Shown here: in pieces, positions 2,141 through 25,511 of the stretch | Position numbering within the stretch: the stretch's first letter is position 1 | How the letters are laid out: each line of letters opens with the position of its first letter | Translations under genes and position numbers: made by a program | The notes under the pieces: generated by a model | The model's input: only the letters and a program-made list of their open reading frames with translations | The model's database searches: none | Told to the model about the DNA's origin: nothing | Source: a virus | Virus record (IMG/VR): IMGVR_UViG_3300010370_000056 | Span: 1 to 48,457 of that record | Reading direction: 5' to 3' (one strand) | Length of the DNA: 48,457 nucleotides

Positions 2141-2735
2141 AATTGACCCAAAATACAAGAACTAAACGTGAGTTGAAAATATTGTTGCCGAAGTAGTTGT
2201 GTGGCGCGTGATGTGTTTGCCCATTATACAAGATAAACCGATTAAATTTGTTGTCAATAGTTTGAGTGATTTTGAAATTATCATGGTTAAAATTTTGTTT
2301 CCATTCACCAAAAAATTTAATAATATTCGCATTTCTTGTTGTTGATGCGATTGGAAATGCGTCAACATTTTTATATCCATTCTCATTAAGACATTCACAA
2401 AGAATAGTACCAGAGTTTTCTGGAGGATTTTCATTTAAGTATATCAATCCAGCTAAACCTTCGTTGTCTTGGTGAATTAATCCACACTTATGAATTGCTG
2501 ATGTAATATGAAAAGATGCGTTAAACTGATTCACCTTTTTACCTATTTGGGTTTCAAGCGATGAAATTAAGTATTCATTAATATCATCAGGAACAAGACA
2601 ACGAATCCCTGGATAATTGGATCCATTATCATTCATAATACAACTGTGTTTTTCTTTAAGTAAGTCTAAGGCAATCTTTCTAATGTGATGAGGATCATCA
2701 AAAAAATCATCAATGATAATAGGAAGGTTCTTCAT
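2124..2735 (-). CDS. DUF6445 / 2OG-Fe(II) dioxygenase-like protein (203 aa)
   Basis: The order of likely iron ligands matches the double-stranded beta-helix dioxygenase fold: H88-Q-D90 (LIHQDNEGLAGLIYLN), a distal His at 175/176 (THHAPHNYFG) and an Arg at 190 that could bind 2-oxoglutarate. This pattern resembles DUF6445, a family often found beside flavin-dependent tryptophan halogenases. Its ATG overlaps the halogenase stop (ATGA), so the two are translationally coupled and may act on the same substrate. Oxygenase activity is inferred from motifs only; the substrate is unknown. Confidence 0.65.
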   Translation of the reverse strand: MKNLPIIIDDFFDDPHHIRKIALDLLKEKHSCIMNDNGSNYPGIRCLVPDDINEYLISSLETQIGKKVNQFNASFHITSAIHKCGLIHQDNEGLAGLIYLNENPPENSGTILCECLNENGYKNVDAFPIASTTRNANIIKFFGEWKQNFNHDNFKITQTIDNKFNRFILYNGQTHHAPHNYFGNNIFNSRLVLVFWVNYEMEN

Positions 2736-4183
2736 TTCTTCAGAGTAATCATTTTGATGAACTTTTTATGACTGATCCAGAATAAACTATCCTCATAATT
2801 TTTGGCGTTCTGAAGTTCAGTTTGAGACGTTTCTCCAAGATCATATTCCATGTATTCCTGACGTATTTTATTTACATCAAACCATTCAAGACCATAAAGA
2901 ATTGGAATGTAATTGATGGCATTAAACATTCCCCAAGGACAGTAAACATCTACATCTATTGGCATACGATTTTTCCACATCTCAAGATAACTTTGAAGAT
3001 TTGGAGTGAGTTTGAGATTATACTTAACCTCTTTCCAAAACTCAGTATCTTCTCTCTTGACCAGATAGTGTGCCTGAACATAATCAACGATATTGTCAAA
3101 AATATCATTAACTCTTTGATTGCATGTGTCAACATCATATGATGGTAGATAGTGGGTAAAACAGAACATCTGTTGAATCACACTACCGATTGATGTTGCT
3201 TCTAAAGGCTCTACAAAACTCTGCGATAATCCTACAGCATAACAATTCTTATGCCAAGACTTTTCTAATCGACCAGGATCAAATCGAAACTCTTTTGCAA
3301 TATCTAACTTCCGACCATATGCTTCTTCCATCTCCTGATGAGCTTCATCCTTTCCAATGAACCCATCACAATACACATATCCATTTCCAGTTCTTGTTTG
3401 TGTTGGAATTGTCCATGACCAACCAGCATTTCTTGCTGTAGCCATCGTGTATTTGTTGTACTCCTCCATCTCATCTGTTGGAAATGCAATAGCAGAATTG
3501 ACAGGAAGATATTCGGAATATGATTTCCATTTGATACCATATGTTTTTTCATGAATCAATCTCTTGAATCCACTACAGTCAACAAAGAAATCTGCATGAT
3601 ATTCATGATTATCGGAGAAAACACATTCCATCTCACCAGTTTCAACCAATCGTGTTCCAGTTAGATCATCCTCAATGACATCAATATCCCTCTTAATACA
3701 CTCTTTGTGTAGAAACTTATTAAGTGCAAAAGTATCAAAATGATACTGATTAGATGGTGAGTTATCATGACTATTGAAGGCATCCATAGATACCTCATTT
3801 CTCCAAGTTCCTGGAGATTGCATAGAACTTGGAGGAAGTTGATTTGCTATGACATGTGCATAATTGTAGAAATAACCACCTTTCGAATTTGCATTTGGAT
3901 TTCCAATGTTGTGCATGAAATCGTGTTCAGCCCAATTCTTAAAATATACACCAAGTTTAATTGTAGCATTGGCCTCAAGAATAGATGCTAACTGAGGAAT
4001 ACCAACGTACCTGCAGAATTGTGCCCAATGTTCTGTCGAACTCTCACCAACTCCAACAATACCAACTTTGGAAGATTCAATGATTCGAATGTTTTTTGAT
4101 GGAAATGTAGTCTTAAGAATGAGCGCAGCAATGCAACCAGCAGTTCCGCCACCTACAATAATAATATCATTTATTTTTTTCAT
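2732..4183 (-). CDS. Flavin-dependent tryptophan-halogenase-like protein (483 aa)
   Basis: The N-terminus has the FAD-binding GxGxxG (IIVGGGTAGCIAAL, 8-21). The halogenase signature WxWxIP is present (GWSWTIP, 254-260), the catalytic Lys is K76 in ATIKLGVYFKNW, and the FVEPLEATSIG segment places the active-site Glu at E328. These enzymes use FADH2, O2 and halide to make a hypohalous species held by the Lys. Family members are usually 450-540 aa, so this is full length. A cyanophage relative, VirX1 of Syn10, is an experimentally studied viral halogenase. No flavin reductase is visible nearby, so reduced flavin would have to come from the host. Substrate unknown. Confidence 0.9.
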   Translation of the reverse strand: MKKINDIIIVGGGTAGCIAALILKTTFPSKNIRIIESSKVGIVGVGESSTEHWAQFCRYVGIPQLASILEANATIKLGVYFKNWAEHDFMHNIGNPNANSKGGYFYNYAHVIANQLPPSSMQSPGTWRNEVSMDAFNSHDNSPSNQYHFDTFALNKFLHKECIKRDIDVIEDDLTGTRLVETGEMECVFSDNHEYHADFFVDCSGFKRLIHEKTYGIKWKSYSEYLPVNSAIAFPTDEMEEYNKYTMATARNAGWSWTIPTQTRTGNGYVYCDGFIGKDEAHQEMEEAYGRKLDIAKEFRFDPGRLEKSWHKNCYAVGLSQSFVEPLEATSIGSVIQQMFCFTHYLPSYDVDTCNQRVNDIFDNIVDYVQAHYLVKREDTEFWKEVKYNLKLTPNLQSYLEMWKNRMPIDVDVYCPWGMFNAINYIPILYGLEWFDVNKIRQEYMEYDLGETSQTELQNAKNYEDSLFWISHKKFIKMITLKK

Positions 4184-6744: not shown

Positions 6745-7737
6745 TTAGAGAATTACCAGACCGTCAACTTGCTCTTCTTGCACACCAATTTTTTGAGGAA
6801 TGGCACCAAGAATCGAGTAAGGATCGTTCTTACCACTCATTCGAGCCATGGCATACTGGAGCACAAGATTGTCCAGAGATTCCAACCACTCCATTGTGCG
6901 CTGTTGTTCATCATCCAGTTCACCATGACTTGATGCGCCAGTAGAAAACAGAACCACTGGCATCGTTTCACGAGTGCTGACATAATTCTGCATCATGTTC
7001 TCAAACATACGCAGAACACGGGTAGAACCGTTCGAGTTAGTGTTCAGAACAGATGCTTCAGCGCAGATGTCAGAAACATATTTTTCAGCATCTTCACGAG
7101 AATAGAATTCGATGTTGCCAGCGCGATTGATCTCGTCGATTGCATTTTTGGCAATCGTACCAACAGTTTGAGGAGTGAAGTTGTGATTCAGCGTGTTGAT
7201 CCAATCTTTCACAGACTCAATATCGCAAGAGATGCTACCTTTGCGAATTTTCTTCGAAGCGATGTTAGTGACATCTTTGGCAGTGTGGGGTTTCTTGCCG
7301 TTATCCACGTTTGCACTCAAGCGAGAATCATCAAGAGCATCTTTATCGTCTTGTTGAAACTCAGTGCGAGTTGTCATATCAAACTCGTAGTCGGCAAAAA
7401 CCCAAAATTCGTATCCTTGATTCAGGAGTTCACGAACGCGGTTGAATCCATCTTTAAGATCATCTCCGTTAGTTGTTTCAGGAGTGTATTCTGAAACATC
7501 AATGCCGCGAGCAAGGCTCACACCAAGGCTTTCTTTTTGGGCACCAGTACCACCAGCACGGGCAGTGTTATCGGTGTTGCCATCTTCATCCTTAAGATTC
7601 AAAGAAAGAAGACGCTTAAATGAATATCCAGTAAACTTAAGACCAGGATATTCTTGGGGCGCAGGAAGAAGCGCAATGATTTCGTCCTGAAGTTCTTGCG
7701 AGACGCAATCCTTCGGAACGGTAATGTAGGTTTTCAT
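6745..7737 (-). CDS. Conserved-looking unknown protein (330 aa)
   Basis: ATG-initiated at 7735-7737, with its own early promoter (7807-7835) and terminator (6699-6722), so it is a single-gene transcript with a leader of about 65 nt. The sequence is a soluble mix of helices and acidic loops. Segment 45-150 is very polar (DDLKDGFNRVRELL; FADYEFDMTTRTEF) and segment 255-275 has a hydrophobic strand MPVVLFSTGASSHGELDD that could be a nucleotide or substrate loop. No catalytic signature is recognised. Its early, isolated expression suggests a host-takeover or DNA-metabolism role, which is inference. Confidence 0.8.
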   Translation of the reverse strand: MKTYITVPKDCVSQELQDEIIALLPAPQEYPGLKFTGYSFKRLLSLNLKDEDGNTDNTARAGGTGAQKESLGVSLARGIDVSEYTPETTNGDDLKDGFNRVRELLNQGYEFWVFADYEFDMTTRTEFQQDDKDALDDSRLSANVDNGKKPHTAKDVTNIASKKIRKGSISCDIESVKDWINTLNHNFTPQTVGTIAKNAIDEINRAGNIEFYSREDAEKYVSDICAEASVLNTNSNGSTRVLRMFENMMQNYVSTRETMPVVLFSTGASSHGELDDEQQRTMEWLESLDNLVLQYAMARMSGKNDPYSILGAIPQKIGVQEEQVDGLVIL

Positions 7738-7806
7738 GTGTTTTTAGTAAAGTAAAAGTCCGCTTGAAGCGTTAGCGTTGGCAGGTCATCCCTCACCAAC
7801 AGGGCT

Positions 7807-7835
7807 AATATAACTGATTCAGAAGAACTCGTCAA
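7807..7835 (-). promoter_or_regulatory. Early promoter TTGACG-17-TATATT
   Basis: On the minus strand TTGACG (7830-7835) and TATATT (7807-7812) lie 17 bp apart, followed by AGCCC. The -35 overlaps the end of the upstream gene. It reads into the 330-residue gene at 7737 with a leader of about 65 nt. Confidence 0.75.
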
Positions 7836-8331
7836 GGTCCCCGACCAGTTCAAAAATCGTCACAGTGTCAGTCACCTTATCCCCAAGCACTCTCACCATG
7901 AGATCCAATGATCTCTGATGTGGACGACCCTTCCATCCATACCATTTGCTTTTCTTACCTACAGCATATGGTGGAAGCTTTCCTACGGAAAGATACTGCT
8001 CCGCAGTAAGATCATAAATCTTTTCTCCATCTTGTAACCACCAATGAGTTTCACCACGGTAATCAACACCACTCATCGGTTGCAACTTATCAGTATCCAT
8101 CAAATAGAACAATGCCTGTGTAGAGTGATAGCAATGCCCATATGTTGAATTTGTTTGATTCTCTGCACGATACCTAGTTGATAAAAGATCTGGTGTGAGA
8201 TTGCGTTTAATCAATCCCATCACCAGACACATATTATGTTCTGAATATCGATATGATTCAAATTCTAAACGACGTGTCTTAAAGATATCATTACCTTTAT
8301 ATTTGTGTCTCTCTACAATCTTTATAGCCAT
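7819..8331 (-). CDS. Possible papain/transglutaminase-fold cysteine hydrolase (170 aa)
   Basis: Residues C67 (YGHCYHSTQALFYLM), H96 (ETHWWLQDG) and D107 (IYDLTAEQY) occur in the order and spacing of the Cys-His-Asp triad of transglutaminase-like and NlpC/papain-fold enzymes: Cys at the start of a helix, His at the start of a strand, Asp on the next strand. There is no signal peptide, so it would act in the cytoplasm. It follows a metalloprotease gene after a 39-nt gap in the same transcript. The fold and activity are inferred; no family name can be given with certainty. Confidence 0.55.
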   Translation of the reverse strand: MAIKIVERHKYKGNDIFKTRRLEFESYRYSEHNMCLVMGLIKRNLTPDLLSTRYRAENQTNSTYGHCYHSTQALFYLMDTDKLQPMSGVDYRGETHWWLQDGEKIYDLTAEQYLSVGKLPPYAVGKKSKWYGWKGRPHQRSLDLMVRVLGDKVTDTVTIFELVGDLDEFF

Positions 8332-8370
8332 CTCATCAAACCGGACAAAGCAGAGTCTACTGAATTTATG

Positions 8371-8793
8371 TTAGTTTGTCAAGTAGTTCATATATTCATC
8401 ATAAAGAACTTGTTCCATTTGAGATGCTTCAATCTCCCATGGTTGATCTTCATAATCAAGACTGGAACAATCAATACCTTTCCACAGTCTCTTCTGACCT
8501 TTATCACGAAGAGTTCCTTTTACATGCTGATAAACATGCCAAAGCTCATGAAAAAGTGTCATGATGTAGTGATCTGGATTGAGTCCATTGTGCATCTCAA
8601 TCTCAAATGCACGAGGACGATAATCACAATCCATTACAGTACACCAACCATAGACACCTTCACGCAATAGACCACGATGATTGACTGTAAGGTCTATTTT
8701 ATGCTTCGGAAGATGTTTGTTCATAAACCACTCTACAACACCCTCACAGCGTCTTCTAGAGTAGTTATAACCGCTTAATTCAAGAAAGAGCAT
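8371..8793 (-). CDS. Zincin-type metallopeptidase, HExxH (140 aa)
   Basis: The motif H82-E-L-W-H86 (TLFHELWHVYQHVKG) is the HExxH zinc site, and WEIEASQME at 119-127 supplies a Glu (E120 or E122) as a likely third ligand, as in gluzincin/SprT-like or IrrE-type peptidases. There is no signal peptide. The protein is a minimal catalytic domain. It overlaps the small upstream ORF by 14 nt. A cytoplasmic protease made early could degrade or process a host regulator or a phage precursor; the substrate is unknown. Confidence 0.75.
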   Translation of the reverse strand: MLFLELSGYNYSRRRCEGVVEWFMNKHLPKHKIDLTVNHRGLLREGVYGWCTVMDCDYRPRAFEIEMHNGLNPDHYIMTLFHELWHVYQHVKGTLRDKGQKRLWKGIDCSSLDYEDQPWEIEASQMEQVLYDEYMNYLTN

Positions 8794-8887
8794 AATTCAA
8801 AACCGATTCAGTTACTTTAACACCCCAGTGCAAAAAATTTACAAATGCACCGACAAAGACCAGTTTTTCGGTTGTTGTAAGTCTCAT
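8780..8887 (-). CDS. Small hydrophobic protein (35 aa)
   Basis: ATG at 8885-8887, TGA at 8780-8782. The product MRLTTTEKLVFVGAFVNFLH... has a hydrophobic stretch around 9-19 and an amphipathic C-terminus. It lies just downstream of the promoter at 8909, has a weak AAGAG ribosome site five nt before the ATG, and overlaps the metallopeptidase start. These features support a genuine leader-sized gene, but its size limits certainty. Confidence 0.5.
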   Translation of the reverse strand: MRLTTTEKLVFVGAFVNFLHWGVKVTESVLNYALS

Positions 8888-8908
8888 GGACTCTTGCTAT
8901 CTGTAGCC

Positions 8909-8914
8909 ATTATA
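8909..8914 (-). promoter_or_regulatory. Early promoter -10 box (TATAAT) fused to a terminator U-tract
   Basis: TATAAT followed by GGCTACA directly continues the TTTT tract of the terminator at 8914-8942. The -35 region (CCAGGA at 17 bp) is poor, so the site is supported mainly by the shared -10 context and the following genes. Confidence 0.5.
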
Positions 8915-8942
8915 AAACCCCGCACAGGCGATCCTGGCGGGG
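8914..8942 (-). terminator. Rho-independent terminator after the oxygenase cluster
   Basis: On the minus strand CCCCGC ... GCGGGG (8937-8942 with 8918-8923), with further AGG/CCT pairing inside, is followed by TTTT. It closes the transcript carrying the three 2OG-Fe(II) oxygenases. Confidence 0.75.
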
Positions 8943-8965
8943 TCTGTGGCAGTTCTTAAAGTGGC

Positions 8966-9553
8966 CTACTTGAAGTAACAATTAAAGGCAATCGAAATAC
9001 GATCTTCGTTAGACTCATTTGGTTGAACTTCATGTTCAAGGTCTGATGGAAATAAAAGCATCATTCCCTCTTGAGGACAAAGAGACCACGACTTTGACAG
9101 TCTAAATCCATCTCTTATTTGTTCAGGTGTCCTATCTAATAACCTAGATCTTGAAAATAATCGGGGTGTGTAGAATTCGATCTCTCCGCAGTTATCGGGC
9201 GTCTTAACCCAAAAAACGCCAGAAAAATGACAATCCGGATGACTATGCAGTTTGTTATAACTTCCTTTCTTATTAATATTTAACCACATATTTGCCAAAT
9301 TATATTCACCTTGATATGGAATTGATTTTTGAATATGATTGAAAATATAATTGTAAAAATTTATAAAAGTTGGTTGGTGATAAAAATTGTCGTGGGATTG
9401 CCAACCACCACGATTTGAAATAATTACACCATCATTATCATATTTTTGATATTCATATATCCACGAAATTAAATCATTTTTAATTAAGCGATAATCGTCA
9501 CACTCAATTAAAGAAACTAATGATGGGAATAACGGTATATGTCGAATATTCAT
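8966..9553 (-). CDS. 2OG-Fe(II) oxygenase, TIGR02466 / 2OG-FeII_Oxy_5-like (195 aa)
   Basis: The core reads KLHSHPDCHFSGVFWVKTP (101-119), then GEIEFYTPR, then GMMLLFPSDLEHEVQPN with H174 as distal iron ligand and R185 (DRISIAFNC) as likely 2-oxoglutarate ligand. The HxHP...SGVxW pattern is that of the TIGR02466 putative 2OG-Fe(II) oxygenases. Such enzymes hydroxylate a substrate using O2 and 2-oxoglutarate. It is the last of three oxygenase genes in a row; its ATG overlaps the previous stop. Substrate unknown; a tail-fibre protein or host metabolite is possible. Confidence 0.8.
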   Translation of the reverse strand: MNIRHIPLFPSLVSLIECDDYRLIKNDLISWIYEYQKYDNDGVIISNRGGWQSHDNFYHQPTFINFYNYIFNHIQKSIPYQGEYNLANMWLNINKKGSYNKLHSHPDCHFSGVFWVKTPDNCGEIEFYTPRLFSRSRLLDRTPEQIRDGFRLSKSWSLCPQEGMMLLFPSDLEHEVQPNESNEDRISIAFNCYFK

Positions 9554-10134
9554 TCTTCTGCTTTAAATTCTGAGGACATTCCAAGGTAAGGTCTTTTATC
9601 ATAAATGTGATCTGCATAAGGACCATCAGCATTCACATAATGCAAAAATGATTGAAGATACCATTTTTGCGTAAAGGGAGGTCTCCAATGATATAAATCA
9701 CATCCTCTATATAAACAAAGATCCCCCGGTTCAAGTAAAACTTCTACAGGATCACTTTTATCTTCATTTTTACTAAAATAAATCGGATTAATTGAATCTC
9801 CTTCAGGTATTCCTAATGCAAGCGTTGCAGACATTTCGCATGAAGGACGATCACGATGATTTACAAGTTCATCTCCAATGCCATATAAACGACTATATGT
9901 GTATGTTGGAAGTAATTTATATCCAGAGATTTCACTCAATGCTTCTGTAGATGCCTCCAATATGGTTTCCATAAATGGATCACTATAAAACGAATATGAA
10001 AATGGTGCTTGGTGATCGTTGGTATCAGCATGGCCCGCTTTAATTCTCAAAAAGAAATAATCTTGAATAAAGTATGTAAAATCTCTATCAAGAAAATTCT
10101 TGACTACAAGATAACCTTTTTCTTTAAAACTCAT
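9550..10134 (-). CDS. 2OG-Fe(II) oxygenase (194 aa)
   Basis: H93-R-D95 (ELVNHRDRPSCEMSATLAL) is the HxD iron site and H149 (CDLYHWRPPF) the distal His, after the typical EPGDLCLYRG turn (135-144). Soluble, no signal peptide, close to the 190-220 residues usual for these single-domain dioxygenases. It sits between two other oxygenase genes, nine nt after the upstream stop and overlapping the downstream start by ATGA. The HRDRPSCE pattern is common in phage dioxygenases with unknown substrates. Confidence 0.8.
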   Translation of the reverse strand: MSFKEKGYLVVKNFLDRDFTYFIQDYFFLRIKAGHADTNDHQAPFSYSFYSDPFMETILEASTEALSEISGYKLLPTYTYSRLYGIGDELVNHRDRPSCEMSATLALGIPEGDSINPIYFSKNEDKSDPVEVLLEPGDLCLYRGCDLYHWRPPFTQKWYLQSFLHYVNADGPYADHIYDKRPYLGMSSEFKAEE

Positions 10135-10143
10135 AATAATACC

Positions 10144-10812
10144 TCAACGAAACGGTGGCCCATGAACCCATGCCACTAAAGCATATCTTTCTCCTTTAGT
10201 TACCGGAGTACATTCATGTAATGTATAAGAAGGAAAAAAGACGCCCATTCCTTTTTTCTTTTGAATTTTTATTCCTTCATGGCCATGATGAAGAATCAAA
10301 TCTCCACCTTCATACTCACTTGGATCGGAAAGTTGAATGACTACACTTAATTTACGATTATGTGGTACGTTCCATGTTAACGGATCTATGTGTTTTTTAT
10401 AACAACCTTCCTCTTCGGATTTATAATGGGTAAATTGAAGTCTTTCTATTTGTGTCAAATCAAATTTAAAAAACTGTTGATTTATTTGAACCACTGATTG
10501 TGATAATTTATTATAAATCCAAGAAGTATGTGAATTTGTAGGAATCCAAGATACGAAAGAACGACGATGATCCAAACAGTTTTCTCCAGCGCCTCCCGTT
10601 TGTGCTCTCTCCATGTTTAATGTGGTTCCGATTTTTATAATCGAATCCAATTCGTCGGAAGAAAAAATGCAATCATTCCACACATATAATTCGTAATGAT
10701 GTTGATTTAAATACCAATATGAAGATGTCTCATTTACGTTTTCAAAAATTTTGTCTCTTAAAGGTTGAATATTGTCAAGAGAATTATAAGATTTCAAATA
10801 TGTGGAGATCAT
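10144..10812 (-). CDS. Prolyl 4-hydroxylase-like 2OG-Fe(II) oxygenase, PKHD type (222 aa)
   Basis: The catalytic region has H141-I-D143 (YKKHIDPLTW), the strand KLSVVIQLSDPSEYEGGDL (154-172), distal H199 in FPSYTLHECTPV and R209 in KGERYALVAWVHGP, which is the full HxD...H...R set of P4H/PKHD hydroxylases such as PiuC. The N-terminal 60 residues are separate and less conserved-looking. One nt separates its start from the stop of the DUF4376-like structural gene, linking it to the fibre region. Prolyl hydroxylation of a virion protein is a reasonable but untested idea. Confidence 0.85.
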   Translation of the reverse strand: MISTYLKSYNSLDNIQPLRDKIFENVNETSSYWYLNQHHYELYVWNDCIFSSDELDSIIKIGTTLNMERAQTGGAGENCLDHRRSFVSWIPTNSHTSWIYNKLSQSVVQINQQFFKFDLTQIERLQFTHYKSEEEGCYKKHIDPLTWNVPHNRKLSVVIQLSDPSEYEGGDLILHHGHEGIKIQKKKGMGVFFPSYTLHECTPVTKGERYALVAWVHGPPFR

Positions 10813-10813
10813 G

Positions 10814-11368
10814 TCATGAGAGTTCTGTGGATGGCCAAGTGATATTGTAATCTAATTCCAACAAAGATTTTAAAGATTTTTTTGAAAGAATAAGTGAAGC
10901 GAAATTTGTTTCGATATCAAAACATTTTTGAATATAATCATGAATTGCGTCAGTTAATTCTACAATTTTGCTTCCTGTTAATTCTACCACACCATCTCGG
11001 GTTTTCCAATTATAAGTTGAATCTAAGTTATTTGCAACTAAATTTCTTTTATGGTAAAGGGAATTTACAGTTGACTCAGTTAAAACATATGAAATTTCAT
11101 CATATGTTATAGATTCAGTTTGTGCTTCCCAACGAAGATTGGCAACTTCATCACAAAGTCTGTATTTAAATTGTTCTAAAAGTTGATCACTGCAACTATA
11201 GTTGAGAATATCCGAATCAGTAATTTTAATCCAACCAAGTTCTTTCAAATCTGGATCCGGTAAAAAACAAAGTCCAGAAATATTTCTCCAACCATTAGGT
11301 AAAGTTTGAATATTGCTAAGATTTTTGTCAGATTTATCTTCAACAAAAGCGTAAAATTTGTCAATCAT
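10814..11368 (-). CDS. DUF4376-like tail-fibre-associated protein (184 aa)
   Basis: Residues about 69-155 show the DUF4376 pattern: a helix RLCDEVANLRWEAQTESI, a Thr/Ser-rich turn (TESTVNSLYHKRN), the central WKTRDGVVELTGSKI and an amphipathic ELTDAIHDYIQKCF helix. DUF4376 is found at the C-terminus of phage tail proteins. The N-terminal half is probably a beta domain. The gene lies between a structural-region unknown and the oxygenases with ATGA-type spacing. Tail-fibre accessory or assembly role inferred. Confidence 0.6.
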   Translation of the reverse strand: MIDKFYAFVEDKSDKNLSNIQTLPNGWRNISGLCFLPDPDLKELGWIKITDSDILNYSCSDQLLEQFKYRLCDEVANLRWEAQTESITYDEISYVLTESTVNSLYHKRNLVANNLDSTYNWKTRDGVVELTGSKIVELTDAIHDYIQKCFDIETNFASLILSKKSLKSLLELDYNITWPSTELS

Positions 11369-11922
11369 GATTGCGTTTTCCCCTTTCTCTTAGATTTTGA
11401 TTGAGTTTCTTGAATTTCTTCAGGATTTTTTTGTTCTATACTTGCTTCTAATTGTTTTTGTTCGCCAAAAAGTTCAGATGAAAGTTGGTTTACCTCATAT
11501 TTAGCTTGCAAGGCAAGTAGTTCCTTTTTCTTTTGCAATTCAACTTCAACTTCAACTGCTCTGAAAGCTCTTTGTTCTTTTTGTCCTTCAAGTTCCCAAT
11601 CAGCTGAACCTTTCCAATATGCCGAAGCAGTCTCATCATCATGCCACGTTCTCCAAGCACTAAAGTTTTGCTTTGGTCTCATCGCAATTTCTACTCCCAC
11701 AGATGATGCAAGTTGTTCAAGAAACTCAACGATTTCTGTGGGTCTTAATGGTATCCACATGTTACCAAAATCACCTCTCATTGAAATTTCGATAGAACCA
11801 CCACCGCATGGTCCAGACGTGATAGATCGAGCACGAGTTCTATTTTGCAATGTACTTCTGTACGAATCTTCTTCGTACATTTCATTCATTTTTTGCTTAT
11901 ATTCAGGTGATGCTTTTGCCAT
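11365..11922 (-). CDS. Structural-region hypothetical with coiled-coil C-terminus (185 aa)
   Basis: The N-terminus is charged (MAKASPEYKQKMNEMYEED), followed by a Gly-rich turn and a compact domain with several Trp (WIPLRPTEIVEFLEQL; AWRTWHDDE). From about residue 112 it becomes a long charged helix (EVEVELQKKKELLALQ) ending in a Lys/Ser/Gln tail, likely a coiled coil. It is preceded by AATAAATA late-promoter-like repeats and lies among fibre genes. No domain recognised; a virion accessory protein is likely. Confidence 0.7.
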   Translation of the reverse strand: MAKASPEYKQKMNEMYEEDSYRSTLQNRTRARSITSGPCGGGSIEISMRGDFGNMWIPLRPTEIVEFLEQLASSVGVEIAMRPKQNFSAWRTWHDDETASAYWKGSADWELEGQKEQRAFRAVEVEVELQKKKELLALQAKYEVNQLSSELFGEQKQLEASIEQKNPEEIQETQSKSKRKGKTQS

Positions 11923-11950: not shown

Positions 11951-11962
11951 TATTTATTTATT
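11951..11962 (-). promoter_or_regulatory. Late-promoter-like box AATAAATAAATA
   Basis: Two overlapping AATAAATA copies on the minus strand, about 30 nt before the ATG at 11922, resemble the T4-type late box. The low-complexity AT sequence makes a chance match possible. Confidence 0.45.
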
Positions 11963-13370
11963 GATTGTTCCAACTAATCGTAATTGAAGAACCACTAGGA
12001 ACAGTAACTGGATATGTTTCTCCAGGAAGTACATATACTGATGATTGTGATTGGGGTTGCCCAGTTGCTGCTCCTGCTTGTCCCGTTACTGGATTTCCTT
12101 GATGGCCCGTGCCACCTTGGGTAGTATTGCCATTAGGTCCATTAATTGAGTGTTGTACTGGGTTATTATTAACATGTTGGCCAGCGAATCCAGATTGAGC
12201 TGCGTAAGCATATCCGCCTCCTCCAGCACCACCGCCGGCACCAGCACCATGAGTGGGCGCAATAGGAGGATAATAACCACCTCTTCCACCTCTTCCCGCT
12301 TCATGATGATTAACAGCTGCACCAAAACCCCCATCACCTCCAACTCCGCCGTGAGGGCCCCTAGTTTGACCGGTCGAACCGCTGTTGCCATGCTGAGCAC
12401 CACCGCCGCCCGCGCCGCCACTGCCGCCCTGGCCACCTACAGTATTTCGAATTGGCGCTGGATTTATGGTAGACCCGTTGCCGGCGTAACCGCCGGTTCC
12501 TCCCTGACCCTTAAAACCACCAGCGCCACCACTGCCACCAGCGGCGTGGTGATTAGGGCCGCCGCCATAACCAGGATGGCCATTACCGCCGGGGTTTCCA
12601 GTTCCAGGTCCTCCAGGACCTCCTGCTTGTCCAGTAGCACCAGTACCACCAGCACCACCAGGAAAATTTAAATGAGTATGATTTGGTGATCCAAAAACTG
12701 CCTGAGCTCCTGCGCCGCCGGGATTGCCTTGAGTGCCAGGTTGGCCATTACCTCCTGCGTTAGGATGTCCTTGATTATAATGTTGGATTACAGGAGCATG
12801 GCCGCCAGAGGTGCCGAAAGTGTGGCCAGGGTTGCCAGGGTTGCCACTGTTGCCTTCATTCCCAGCAGAACCATTGCCCCCAGCTTGGCCAAAAAGACCG
12901 TTAGCTGGGACTGTGCCGATTACACCAGACCCGCCGGGGCCGCCGTTCTGAGCGTGAAATCCGCTAGTATAACCTGCAGTTCCAGGCAAAAAGGGTCTTA
13001 ATGGTGTAGGTACTCCCGGCGCGCCACCCACACCACCGCCGCCACCGCCGTAACCGCCACCGCCGGGATTGGCATTGCCGCCGGGATGGCCACTGCCGCC
13101 CTGGATCGCCGGAGCTTGATGTCCATGAGGATTATAATGAGTTCCATTTCCCGCATACCCTGTTGCGCCATGTCCACCAGCGCCGCCTTGGCCGGGTCCT
13201 CCCGGTTGTCCAGGTCCTCCATGACCCGAAATTGTAACTCGTTTTATACGAGATGGGATTCGAATATTTCCGGGATTATTAAAAGTTAATGTTGTTCCTG
13301 TGGGAGTTGTAACTGCCGAAGGAGCTGCTGTTCCTCCAATGATTGATTTACCCGATGCTCCGAATGCCAT
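11958..13370 (-). CDS. Collagen-like glycine-rich structural protein / adhesin (470 aa)
   Basis: Start set at the ATG at 13368-13370 (MAFGASGKSIIGG), five nt after the stop of the P4H-like gene; the longer frame would begin inside that gene. Residues 28-50 form a beta segment (TLTFNNPGNIRIPSRIKRV), the next 370 or so are Gly-rich with many GG, GNG and about eighteen X-Pro-Gly tripeptides, and the C-terminus ends in PVTVPSGSSITISWNNQ. This beta-cap/Gly-rich/beta-cap plan matches phage glycine-rich domains and recalls the polyglycine-II sandwich of T-even gp38-type adhesins. It probably forms a fibre tip or shaft. Codons are markedly more GC-rich than in neighbours. Confidence 0.8.
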   Translation of the reverse strand: MAFGASGKSIIGGTAAPSAVTTPTGTTLTFNNPGNIRIPSRIKRVTISGHGGPGQPGGPGQGGAGGHGATGYAGNGTHYNPHGHQAPAIQGGSGHPGGNANPGGGGYGGGGGGVGGAPGVPTPLRPFLPGTAGYTSGFHAQNGGPGGSGVIGTVPANGLFGQAGGNGSAGNEGNSGNPGNPGHTFGTSGGHAPVIQHYNQGHPNAGGNGQPGTQGNPGGAGAQAVFGSPNHTHLNFPGGAGGTGATGQAGGPGGPGTGNPGGNGHPGYGGGPNHHAAGGSGGAGGFKGQGGTGGYAGNGSTINPAPIRNTVGGQGGSGGAGGGGAQHGNSGSTGQTRGPHGGVGGDGGFGAAVNHHEAGRGGRGGYYPPIAPTHGAGAGGGAGGGGYAYAAQSGFAGQHVNNNPVQHSINGPNGNTTQGGTGHQGNPVTGQAGAATGQPQSQSSVYVLPGETYPVTVPSGSSITISWNNQ

Positions 13371-13375
13371 GTTTT

Positions 13376-13972
13376 TTAATCGTAATAAAACCAACCTGTT
13401 ATTATGTATTTAGCATTATCTCCATAAACTACGTTGCCGCGATGCGTATGCGTAAACCCTGCAGGCCATATTACCATGCAATTTTCTTTTGGAGGTATTC
13501 TCAATCTTTGATATAAAAACTCAGTTTCTCCTGCAGCATTATGTTCTAAAGTATTCAGATATAAAGAATATACTAATCCTCTCCATGCTTGTTCCCCATT
13601 CCCTTGTTCTGGATGCCATACATGATAACCACCACCAGGCATCGTTCTTTGCATTTTTACAGAACTACATTTTAATGATGGTTCTTTTAATACGTCAAAT
13701 TCACTCACATATTCATCAAAACAATTTTGCAATCCTTCAAAAAATACATCAATTGCTGGACGACCTTCAAAGGATGAAGTTGGATGATTTCTTATATTTA
13801 ACATCACTGAATCATCATGTTTGGATGTCTTTGGTACATTTTCAGATTGTTGTCTTGAACCAACCATCCCAGACTGATTAAGACGTTCAAATTCTTCAAT
13901 CATATGCTGACAAAATCCATCAGCATATACGTTTTCATACATTCCAATAAAATCAACATATTTTGCTTTCAT
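13376..13972 (-). CDS. P4H-type 2OG-Fe(II) oxygenase in the fibre operon (198 aa)
   Basis: The iron site is probably H120-P-E122 (GGGYHVWHPEQ), the HxE variant of HxD, with distal H175 or H177 in IWPAGFTHTHRGN. The strand pattern RGLVYSLYLNTL...GETEFLY between them is typical of P4Hc-domain enzymes. It is preceded by a TATAAATA late promoter and followed after five nt by the glycine-rich X-Pro-Gly protein, so the two should be made together late in infection. Modifying that fibre is the obvious hypothesis. Confidence 0.8.
   Translation of the reverse strand: MKAKYVDFIGMYENVYADGFCQHMIEEFERLNQSGMVGSRQQSENVPKTSKHDDSVMLNIRNHPTSSFEGRPAIDVFFEGLQNCFDEYVSEFDVLKEPSLKCSSVKMQRTMPGGGYHVWHPEQGNGEQAWRGLVYSLYLNTLEHNAAGETEFLYQRLRIPPKENCMVIWPAGFTHTHRGNVVYGDNAKYIITGWFYYD
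13407..13413 (-). promoter_or_regulatory. Possible late promoter CTAAATA
   Basis: CTAAATACATAATAAC on the minus strand lies 37 nt before the glycine-rich gene, inside the end of the oxygenase gene. It matches the CTAAATA variant of the late box. Confidence 0.4.
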
Positions 13973-13992: not shown

Positions 13993-14000
13993 ATATTTAT
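13993..14000 (-). promoter_or_regulatory. Late promoter TATAAATA
   Basis: A perfect T4-type late box about 21 nt before the ATG of the P4H-like gene (13972), overlapping the end of the preceding gene by four bases. Confidence 0.7.
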
Positions 14001-14422
14001 ACGTTTATTTGCGAAAGAATCCCGTACCAACTGGTTCCAGCATCAAGTGTAATAAAAGACCACACATTAGTTTTATTTGCAGTTGTTGTCCAACCACCAG
14101 TTCCTGCAGGTGGAGTTGTATTTCCTTGCCATTTCACGGATGCTGGCCAGTTTATAGTGGAGGCAGTAACACCTGGATTTGTAAGGTATAAGACAAAACT
14201 AAAAGCACCTGAAGATGGCATTCCAGTAGTATTAAATGAAAAAGTTACCGCATTATTTGGCAATGTTCCGTACTGTACGTTACCATTTGAAATTGTAATT
14301 GATGGTGTAGAACCTGAGATTGATCCTAAATTGTATGCAAATTCTGTGTAATTGGAAAAAGTAGATGTTAAAATATTTCTACTTTGATCAATGATATCTG
14401 TCCCTGTAATTTTAATTGTCAT
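13997..14422 (-). CDS. Small fibre-like structural protein, paralogue 3 of 3 (141 aa)
   Basis: Begins MTIKITGTDIIDQSRNIL and ends with TNVWSFITLDAGTSWYGILSQ, the same opening and closing motifs as the next two genes. The middle is Thr/Ser/Gly-rich beta sequence with no Cys. This is the layout of repeated tail-fibre head domains. It is separated by two nt from the paralogue upstream. Probably a virion decoration or fibre-tip protein; no known family can be named. Confidence 0.75.
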   Translation of the reverse strand: MTIKITGTDIIDQSRNILTSTFSNYTEFAYNLGSISGSTPSITISNGNVQYGTLPNNAVTFSFNTTGMPSSGAFSFVLYLTNPGVTASTINWPASVKWQGNTTPPAGTGGWTTTANKTNVWSFITLDAGTSWYGILSQINV

Positions 14423-14424
14423 TA

Positions 14425-14862
14425 TTATACGATATTAGGTTGAATAAGGTTTCCATACCAAGTTGTACCATTATTTAATGTTGTAAAAGACCAAATATTT
14501 GTTCTCCCTTGTATGGTTGCACTATTTTGAGTCCAGTCCGGAACAGTTCCTCCTGACCATACTACCGACCCTGGCCAAGCCAATGTCGTATTGTTTGCAG
14601 TTCCAGAGGCATTTGTCAAAATTAAAACAAAACTTGCAGCACCACTTGTGACACCTGTTGTAAATGTAAAAGTGGTTGTTCCTGATGATAGTAAAGTCCC
14701 AGTAAAAACTGTAGCAGTTGATAAATTTAAAGTATTACCTGGCGAAGCATTGGTATTAAGAGTACCTAATGCTGAGGCAGTTTCACTATAATTTTTCAAA
14801 GTAGCTGTTACAATGTTTCTACTCTGATCAATAACATCTGTTCCGGCAATTTGAATTGTCAT
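14425..14862 (-). CDS. Small fibre-like structural protein, paralogue 2 of 3 (145 aa)
   Basis: Begins MTIQIAGTDVIDQSRNIV and ends RTNIWSFTTLNNGTTWYGNLIQ. It shares the GTDxIDQxRNI opening, an NY(T/S)E helix and the NxWSF-xxxGTxWYGN closing motif with its neighbours. The middle (WPGSVVWSGGTVPDW) differs, suggesting a variable exposed face on a conserved frame. Two nt from each neighbour. Confidence 0.75.
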   Translation of the reverse strand: MTIQIAGTDVIDQSRNIVTATLKNYSETASALGTLNTNASPGNTLNLSTATVFTGTLLSSGTTTFTFTTGVTSGAASFVLILTNASGTANNTTLAWPGSVVWSGGTVPDWTQNSATIQGRTNIWSFTTLNNGTTWYGNLIQPNIV

Positions 14863-14864
14863 CG

Positions 14865-15278
14865 TTATGTGTAATTAAAAAGTACGATATTTCCATACCA
14901 AGTAGTTCCATTTGGCGTAAACCAACTCCAAACATCTGTTCTATTTGCTATACCTGTTGAAGCTGGTGCGGACCCTCCTGTCCATTTTAATGTACCTCCA
15001 ACTGGTGCTACCCAACTAACACTATGAACTCCAGTTGCACTTGCTTTTAAAAAGAAAAGAAAACTTGTTGCGCCAGAAACGCCGGGTTGTATAGTAAGAG
15101 ATGGAGCACCTGCCGTCGAAATAGTTCCTGTAAAAATAGATGCAGTCGATAAATCAAGAGTTTGTGATGCTCCAATATTACCAAAATTTGTCACAGTTTC
15201 AGTATAATTTTTCAAAGTGGCAGAAAGAATATTTCTGTTTTGATCAATAATGTCTGTTCCGGCAACTTGAATTGTCAT
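14865..15278 (-). CDS. Small fibre-like structural protein, paralogue 1 of 3 (137 aa)
   Basis: Begins MTIQVAGTDIIDQNRNIL and ends RTDVWSWFTPNGTTWYGNIV, with the same frame as the two genes downstream. It is the first of the tandem set and follows an AATAAATA late-like box in the end of the S74 fibre gene. The three proteins likely occupy related positions on the virion or are alternative receptor-binding tips. Confidence 0.75.
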   Translation of the reverse strand: MTIQVAGTDIIDQNRNILSATLKNYTETVTNFGNIGASQTLDLSTASIFTGTISTAGAPSLTIQPGVSGATSFLFFLKASATGVHSVSWVAPVGGTLKWTGGSAPASTGIANRTDVWSWFTPNGTTWYGNIVLFNYT

Positions 15279-22139: not shown

Positions 22140-22733
22140 TCATTCTTTCCACAAGAGATTTAAATTTTTATCAAATACCATTACATATCTGTGTTTACGA
22201 CTTCTTTCCTTCCACTCTCCTTCAGAACCTTTTATTTTTCCACGAGAGTGTTTAGTTCCGTCTGTATAGTAGAAATCTTTTCTTGGATCCGTGAGACCTG
22301 CATATTTAAAGTTACAAGCACGATAAATTGTACCAGTATGGTGATTTGAATCAGCATAAGAAATGATTGCTTTAACTTCAGTATCTTTCCGAAGTTTTCT
22401 AATCGCCCGTGACACAAACCAAGAAGTGATGTTATATTCGCATGACTGCGTGTTAGGTTCGATGCAAAGTCTTGAAAGTTCGAAAAGTCCTTGTTGTTCA
22501 TATCGTTCTAATCCAAATGCTCCTACCGCAATTTCGGGTACTGGAAGACCAGTAAAGATGCAAGCACCAAGACAGTCTCCTAATCGAAGAACATCTGTAA
22601 ATGATTTGCGGTAAAGTCCATAGTTGAAACCAGATTTAAAATCTTTAGATTCATCTTTTAGATAATGGTGAGTATAAAGAAGGTCTTTGATTTCTTCTTT
22701 ACTCACCCTATCTATGTAAAACTCAGACTTCAT
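22140..22733 (-). CDS. Mom-like (GNAT-fold) DNA-modification protein (197 aa)
   Basis: The middle and end follow the pattern of the phage Mu Mom family: a charged YIDRVSKEEIKDLLYTHHYLK start, GDCLGACIFTGLPVPEIAVGAFG, FELSRLCIEPN, SWFVSRAIRKLRKD, IISYADSNHHTGTIYRACNFKYAG and a final RSRKHRYVMVF. Mu Mom is a GNAT-fold enzyme that adds a carbamoylmethyl-type group to adenine N6 and protects phage DNA from restriction. If this protein acts likewise, it is an anti-restriction gene. Its start overlaps the previous small gene (ATGA) and a terminator follows. Confidence 0.75.
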   Translation of the reverse strand: MKSEFYIDRVSKEEIKDLLYTHHYLKDESKDFKSGFNYGLYRKSFTDVLRLGDCLGACIFTGLPVPEIAVGAFGLERYEQQGLFELSRLCIEPNTQSCEYNITSWFVSRAIRKLRKDTEVKAIISYADSNHHTGTIYRACNFKYAGLTDPRKDFYYTDGTKHSRGKIKGSEGEWKERSRKHRYVMVFDKNLNLLWKE

Positions 22734-24731: not shown

Positions 24732-25511
24732 TTAATTTTCCTTAATGTCGTAATGATAACCTGAGATTGAATATTGATCGTTATTACCTGGATAATCTGC
24801 TGGTGTTTGTCCTTCATATTCTGGAATCAGATCTTCGCCATCAGAACGAGTGGCAAAAATATGATAGAAACAATCAATAGGTACTCCACCATTTGATTGT
24901 AAATATACTTTACTTTCATCAATTCTCTTAATCATAATATGTTGATGAGCACCAATGGGAGTCAATTGAACTGTAATTGATTTCCAATCAACAAAGTCTT
25001 TCCAGTATTCTGGAAGATCAATTTCAGTATTGTTTCTAACTCTTCCACGAATGTAAACATCATTATATGGAGCTTCTGGACAAGTATGGCGAAGTCTCCA
25101 CCCCTCTTTTGTTGGGTGGGGAATATCAAAGTTCTTTTTGGCAGAAAGGAAATGTCCACCACAATTTGATACCACTTCACCTTGAGCATAAAGATTGAGT
25201 CCAACTTGTAGTTGTTCGTTTATATCTACGGGTCCAAGAAATGCTGATGGTCCTTTGACTGCTAAAGAATATGGATTATTTACACCTTTACATAATGCTC
25301 CAGGAATAAATGGATCCTTAAGAATATCGGTATTATTTGCCTCTCCAATCATCAAAGTAGCTGTAAGAAATGGATGGGGTTCTCCAATGGCAAGAGGACC
25401 CTCAACATATCCAGACCCACGAATTTCTGCAGGACCCGTACCTAATGCTCCTTCTGGAGAACCTTCTCCAACATATAATCTTTTTCCTATTGCTACATTG
25501 TCAAATTGCAT
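24732..25511 (-). CDS. Structural protein, IPHP-domain paralogue A (259 aa)
   Basis: Residues 126-222 carry FDIPHPTKEGWRLRHTCPEAP, VYIRGRVRNN, LPEYWKDFV, SITVQLTPIG and IDCFYHIFATRSD, matching the downstream gene motif by motif. The first 120 residues are Gly/Pro-rich beta structure (VGEGSPEGALGTGPAEIRG). The domain occurs in phage fibre-type proteins that may have auto-processing partners; no active site is obvious. It follows the beta-helix spike gene after two nt, so it is probably assembled in the baseplate area. Confidence 0.75.
   Translation of the reverse strand: MQFDNVAIGKRLYVGEGSPEGALGTGPAEIRGSGYVEGPLAIGEPHPFLTATLMIGEANNTDILKDPFIPGALCKGVNNPYSLAVKGPSAFLGPVDINEQLQVGLNLYAQGEVVSNCGGHFLSAKKNFDIPHPTKEGWRLRHTCPEAPYNDVYIRGRVRNNTEIDLPEYWKDFVDWKSITVQLTPIGAHQHIMIKRIDESKVYLQSNGGVPIDCFYHIFATRSDGEDLIPEYEGQTPADYPGNNDQYSISGYHYDIKEN

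Follow-up and report, generated by a model that had tools for sequence, protein, structure and literature searches.

A P4H-like 2OG-Fe(II) oxygenase gene coupled to the gene of a Gly-rich probable fibre protein in a cyanophage-like virus record

Does a phage carry an enzyme that hydroxylates the proline of its own fibre? This question is raised by two adjacent genes in the window, which is the whole stretch of DNA analysed here, a linear IMG/VR virus record of 48,457 bases (IMGVR_UViG_3300010370_000056). Collagen prolyl 4-hydroxylase (P4H) acts on Pro at the Y position of Gly-X-Y. Mimivirus, with its collagen and the L230 lysyl hydroxylase/glucosyltransferase, is a case in which a virus hydroxylates a Gly-X-Y protein of its own, but L230 targets lysine in true collagen repeats and works in a eukaryotic host. 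To our knowledge, the collagen-like proteins of bacteria and viruses are described as being without prolyl hydroxylation, and we know of no established substrates for the abundant 2OG oxygenases of marine cyanophages. The two genes are as follows:

13376-13972, minus strand: enzyme A, a P4H-like 2OG-Fe(II) oxygenase of 198 aa (Pfam, PHROG, invariant residues, AlphaFold2 model, PDB fold match)
11958-13370, minus strand: Gly-rich X-Pro-Gly protein of 470 aa, probable fibre tip and proposed substrate (composition, conserved ends, linkage to A)

The initial annotation placed the start of the Gly-rich protein five nt after A, and this gap was confirmed: after the stop codon TAA of A (13378-13376) come 5 nt and then the ATG at 13370, and an alternative TTG start at 13394 falls within A. 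A late box had also been described ahead of the gene pair, and it is present:

13994-14001, minus strand: T4-late-type box TATAAATA, 21 nt before A

Because TATAAATA boxes in the window number 4 against 3.6 expected by chance, the box before A carries little weight. A promoter/terminator scan of the window also remained at chance level.

Enzyme A scored 36.3 bits with Pfam 2OG-FeII_Oxy_3, above the curated cut-off of 27, and matched PHROG 61 "2OG-Fe(II) oxygenase" at 3e-38. The P4H-type iron ligands first read in this gene (H120/E122 and H175 or H177) are invariant in 43 A sequences, together with H117, R178 and K188. Judged from the alignment, H175 is likelier than H177 to be the distal iron ligand, though both are invariant, and K188 is likely the 2OG-binding basic residue. 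The iron motif is H120-x-E122, that is, HxE where P4H has HxD, and Lys occupies the 2OG position as in P4H. The AlphaFold2 model of A (pLDDT 86.6), its PDB matches and the Pfam match all point to the double-stranded beta-helix fold of 2OG oxygenases. When the model was compared with the PDB by Foldseek, the top match was 5c5t, the viral collagen prolyl hydroxylase of PBCV-1 (E 2e-9), and the 50 best matches listed were all prolyl hydroxylases. The sequence profile of A gave only P4Hs below E = 1 in the PDB (6iuq 7e-4, 5c5t 2e-3, 5hv0 0.1).

Like A, the PBCV-1 enzyme vCPH (5c5t/5c5u) is a viral 2OG oxygenase with Lys at the 2OG position and a putative X-Pro-Gly substrate (Eriksson 1999, as cited in PMC9301287). 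However, the two are 17% identical over the fold alignment, A has HxE and vCPH HxD, and A is a phage enzyme tied to one adjacent fibre gene, whereas vCPH belongs to an algal virus. PHD2/EGLN1 and the P4H of P. putida share the fold neighbourhood of A, but their substrates are HIF or EF-Tu, with no fibre link. The resemblance of PHROG 61 proteins to EGLN3 has already been noted (PMC12774648).

The window Gly-rich protein contains 152 Gly (32%) and 44 Pro among its 470 residues, with 8 Gly-Pro and 19 Pro-Gly, which agrees with the "about eighteen" X-Pro-Gly counted at first. Composition shuffling gave 14.6 expected Pro-Gly (z = 1.5). This excess is mild, and a clear excess is seen only family-wide. 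The N- and C-terminal ends are conserved in relatives, and the alignment has Gly at each third position within conserved stretches. The window protein has no match in Pfam or PHROG, Pfam Collagen included, and by this does not count as a collagen-like protein with long uninterrupted Gly-X-Y repeats. The Gly-rich protein of one relative (L044) passes the Pfam Collagen cut-off (32.1 vs 27.2 bits). Two others (L013, 15.0 bits; L063, 14.4 bits) did not reach the cut-off of 24.3 bits of Gly_rich_2 (PF21722), which proteins of phage Bellamy do pass.

In an AlphaFold2 model of the L013 fibre (pLDDT 81.5), both ends form beta strands and much of the part between is confident coil. The model had no significant match in the PDB, where the top matches were the Bxb1 tail tip and the Pam3 fibre (third match, non-significant, E 0.12, TM 0.15). 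Matches to predicted viral structures were weak, the top rows having TM < 0.2 by query length, and included tail fibres and glycine-rich domain proteins. By its model, the relative has the look of a Gly-rich fibre domain bearing terminal beta strands rather than of a triple helix. The classic collagen triple helix was dropped for the window protein on the absent Pfam match and this model, which corrects the "collagen-like" wording of the initial annotation. Pam3 gp24 and S16 gp38 resemble the window fibre in having a Gly-rich distal domain flanked by beta structure (PMC9608196), but no hydroxylation is described and no X-Pro-Gly enrichment reported for them, and the structural match to them is non-significant. 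The Gly-rich gene sits within a run of fibre genes, which supports a fibre role, and from its sequence context the protein is a probable fibre, presumably the tip. Three tandem paralogous fibre-type proteins of ~140 aa each are encoded at 13997-15278, just upstream of A, and their homologues precede the module in ~100 loci; the fibre gene directly preceding A (13997-14422) had no match in cultured phages. Searches of cultured phages with the full-length Gly-rich protein, or with just its ends, also returned nothing, for the full-length protein partly because of low-complexity masking.

The co-occurrence of both genes in relatives, proposed as a check on the pair, was followed in IMG/VR in both directions. 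The forward scan took the best 80 relatives of A, with more distant relatives only sampled, and the count set comprised 60 relatives with at least 44% identity to A and a readable 3' flank (L036, at a contig end, was left out). A Gly-rich, Pro-Gly-containing ORF follows A in 59 of these 60, either directly, mostly at ~10 nt, or past exactly one gene of ~195 aa (~585 nt), a homologue of window 9550-10134 (enzyme B). The single exception (L067) is 45% identical over residues 7-197 and lies outside the linked clade in the tree; its Gly-rich ORF is 983 nt from A and has 5 Pro-Gly. Relatives below 44% identity among the best 80 have no such ORF directly after A. For the reverse search, a query made only of the C-terminal 40 residues from 12 Gly-rich proteins retrieved 80 loci. 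A was found within 1.4 kb in 64/64 loci having at least 1.4 kb upstream (44/44 distinct C-termini), a result not fully independent of the forward one, since the searches share some contigs. Another oxygenase gene, C, was present in 60/60 loci with more upstream room, and B adjoins the fibre gene in 53 of the 64, being missing or moved in 11.

In a tree of 70 rows, a single branch (SH-aLRT 98) sets the 40 enzymes that have an X-Pro-Gly partner apart from the rest, and the partner label needs one change, compared with 22.9 after shuffling. This indicates that the linkage arose once and was then kept; no loss was seen even though linked enzymes are only 44-65% identical to the window A. The coupling of A and the fibre gene is thus well supported as a genomic fact, and the two are likely a functional pair. 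A chance neighbourhood was dropped in view of the 64/64 reverse linkage and the single supported clade. The case that would speak against the pair, the enzyme beside unrelated genes, does occur, but only below ~45% identity and in separate lineages. The cyanophage T4-GC 240 oxygenases of S-PM2, Syn1 and S-CAM3 (PHROG 61, 35-39% identity to A) lie directly after gp12 or another fibre gene, but unlike A they are followed by the chaperone-like GC741 and not by an X-Pro-Gly protein, and they fall outside the linked clade. Other distant relatives lie beside replication genes (S-CAM8) or between capsid and tail genes (S-RIM4). The module was not found in cultured phages. In bacterial genomes, the order C-A-Gly was seen in only one contig of 11.6 kb, binned as Verrucomicrobiales (L251), which is perhaps a phage contig.

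These positions beside replication or capsid genes are what one would expect if the target of A is EF-Tu or a ribosomal protein of the host, or another phage target, with the fibre adjacency being historical. Some bacterial and eukaryotic prolyl hydroxylases act on EF-Tu or a ribosomal protein, and the P4Hs of P. putida and Bacillus were solved with EF-Tu as partner (PDB entries). However, the near-exclusive two-way linkage and the Pro bias that accompanies A, described below, speak for the fibre as the target, and we regard a target other than the fibre as very unlikely.

The module consists of A, the fibre gene, two further oxygenase genes (C and usually B) and a small gene, p185. Two layouts were observed, C-A-(B)-Gly-p185 and the window type A-Gly-p185-DUF4376-C-B, in which the remaining genes are:

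11365-11922, minus strand: p185, a conserved gene next in order to the Gly-rich one, with homologues at that place in nearly all loci
10814-11368, minus strand: DUF4376 / PHROG 10508 tail-fibre-type protein, in the same place in 10 loci of window-type layout
10144-10812, minus strand: enzyme C, PKHD/PiuC-like 2OG-Fe(II) oxygenase (H141-x-D143, H199, R209; Pfam; conservation)
9550-10134, minus strand: enzyme B, probable oxygenase (H93-x-D95, H149; PHROG label ferrochelatase)

p185 is absent after the Gly-rich gene in four loci, including fragments that end within or just past the gene, and had no match in cultured phages; that it is a chaperone or adaptor is a guess. The profile of C matched PKHD/PiuC proteins of the PDB (4e-14), and both the HxD...H...R site and PKHD homology are present; since C stays below the cut-offs of the NCBIfam PiuC-type models, it is a relative and not an equivalog. 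An orthologue of B (L019) matched Pfam 2OG-FeII_Oxy_2 at 4e-5, below the cut-off, and profile-profile comparison of A, B and C detected no common origin, so that B is called an oxygenase on the strength of its HxD..H motif and this one sub-threshold match. The "ferrochelatase" label of B (PHROG 2954/3531, cyanophage records) is, by these residues, likely a mislabel. Enzyme D (8966-9553; 2OG-FeII_Oxy_5 / TIGR02466) is a fourth oxygenase in the cluster of the window. In one contig (L009:1681-8043), C, B and A stand between two Gly-rich X-Pro-Gly proteins, an arrangement that suggests a duplicated module.

Human collagens favour Pro at Y, and bacterial and viral collagens are reported to be without that preference (PMC3368898). 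In 60 linked fibres, Pro stands before Gly 849 times and after Gly 212 times. Within Gly-X-Y-Gly, the ratio of Pro at Y to Pro at X was 652:47 in 87 linked proteins (near-duplicates removed) and 71:25 in 56 Gly-rich phage proteins without a close A (Fisher p 9e-8, kinship not corrected for). The density of G-X-P-G was 2.08 per 100 aa in linked fibres vs 0.44 in controls. The window fibre, at 9:2, is a weak member of the linked set, and the linked fibres of L029, L043 and L047 have few Pro-Gly (5-7). In L147, a contig bearing the module, three fibres that are truly collagen-like (6879-11125; GPQGPTGPQGP...) are encoded downstream of C-A-B-Gly; their Pro lies mostly at X, unlike that of the linked Gly-rich protein, and their ratio is 42:177. 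Among control proteins, 56/61 have B and/or C in the locus, which indicates that the Pro bias tracks A rather than B or C.

The same controls, with B and C near Gly-rich proteins in other phages but no Pro bias, fit a neutral association in which cyanophage tail-fibre cassettes are simply rich in oxygenases, and adjacency and Pro-Gly content have no functional meaning. The four oxygenases of the window and the single origin of the linkage agree with it. Nevertheless, A was never lost in 64 fibre loci, though B is missing or moved in 11, and the catalytic residues of A are invariant across deep divergence; we consider this the least likely of the explanations. A different possibility is that A modifies the Gly-rich protein elsewhere, most likely at Asn in the X position of Gly-Asn-Pro, or at the 3-position of Pro. 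Asn favours X in linked fibres (before/after-Gly ratio 0.30 vs 0.74 in controls), and Gly-Asn-Pro is the commonest triplet (414/2171), which leaves room for an Asn hydroxylase. On the other hand, only prolyl hydroxylases stand among the fold neighbours of A, and the Pro bias exceeds the Asn bias (4.2 vs 1.7), and this site for A seems unlikely to us.

In this study, we consider it fairly probable that A is a hydroxylase for the X-Pro-Gly prolines of the Gly-rich fibre made by the same phage; we infer the substrate, the modified residue and its 4-position, as well as any effect that follows. The prolyl-hydroxylase fold matches of A, the two-way linkage, the Pro-at-Y signature and the position among fibre genes favour this reading, and the z of 1.5 in the window, the few Pro-Gly in some linked fibres, HxE in place of HxD, the single origin and the chance that C and B are the relevant modifiers weaken it. 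With one origin, family history and enzyme effect are not fully separable. As proposed, A, with its collagen-P4H/PHD fold and a dependence on 2OG, Fe(II) and O2, would act on the fibre encoded 5 nt downstream and turn the Pro of X-Pro-Gly into hydroxyproline, either ahead of fibre folding or while it proceeds. The hydroxyproline side chains would then lie on the Gly-rich lattice, where they may stabilise it or change receptor contacts. C (PKHD-like) and B probably act on other residues of the same fibre, with Asn at X of Gly-Asn-Pro as a candidate, and p185 may aid its folding. The idea of a P4H-like enzyme dedicated to an X-Pro-Gly fibre is partly supported: it withstood the co-occurrence check (59/60 and 64/64) but needs amending in that A is not the sole possible modifier. 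Only tentatively do we extend this to a multi-enzyme, collagen-style hydroxylation pathway (A, C, B) dedicated to the phage's own host-recognition fibre, in which maturation of the adhesin would depend on host O2, iron and 2-oxoglutarate.

A role in DNA repair, or one connected with 2OG, has been proposed for cyanophage 2OG oxygenases (PMC3037559), and a study of the Baltic Sea described the viral use of P4H as cryptic (PMC9301287). A search of the open-access literature, with subscription papers mostly outside its scope, found no phage fibre hydroxylated on proline. Viral P4H itself is already known; what is new here is a viral P4H-like enzyme in phages, tied to a Gly-rich fibre with two further oxygenases. 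The pair offers a concrete, testable candidate substrate for one oxygenase clade and suggests that, in some phages, the fibres that bind the receptor undergo chemical maturation. If this is true, fibre maturation would be tied to host oxygen, iron and 2OG, and a compact P4H-like enzyme would come with its natural substrate alongside.

The window also encodes T4-like genes, including baseplate hub, tail tube, baseplate wedge, gp32-type single-strand binding protein, thymidylate synthase, PhoH and tryptophan halogenase. The protein at 24732-25511 (function unassigned) is 60-66% identical to proteins of the Synechococcus phages Bellamy, S-B05, S-H68 and S-SCSM1, so that "cyanophage-like myovirus" is a fair label, with a presumed cyanobacterial host. 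Searches of contig fragments for psbA and gp23 gave no match; because the gp23 search was silent in every control, these blanks say nothing about the host. The tryptophan halogenase (PHROG 2928, 2732-4183) is of a gene type known from cyanomyoviruses, and a Mom-like DNA modification protein (PHROG 1384) is encoded at 22140-22733.
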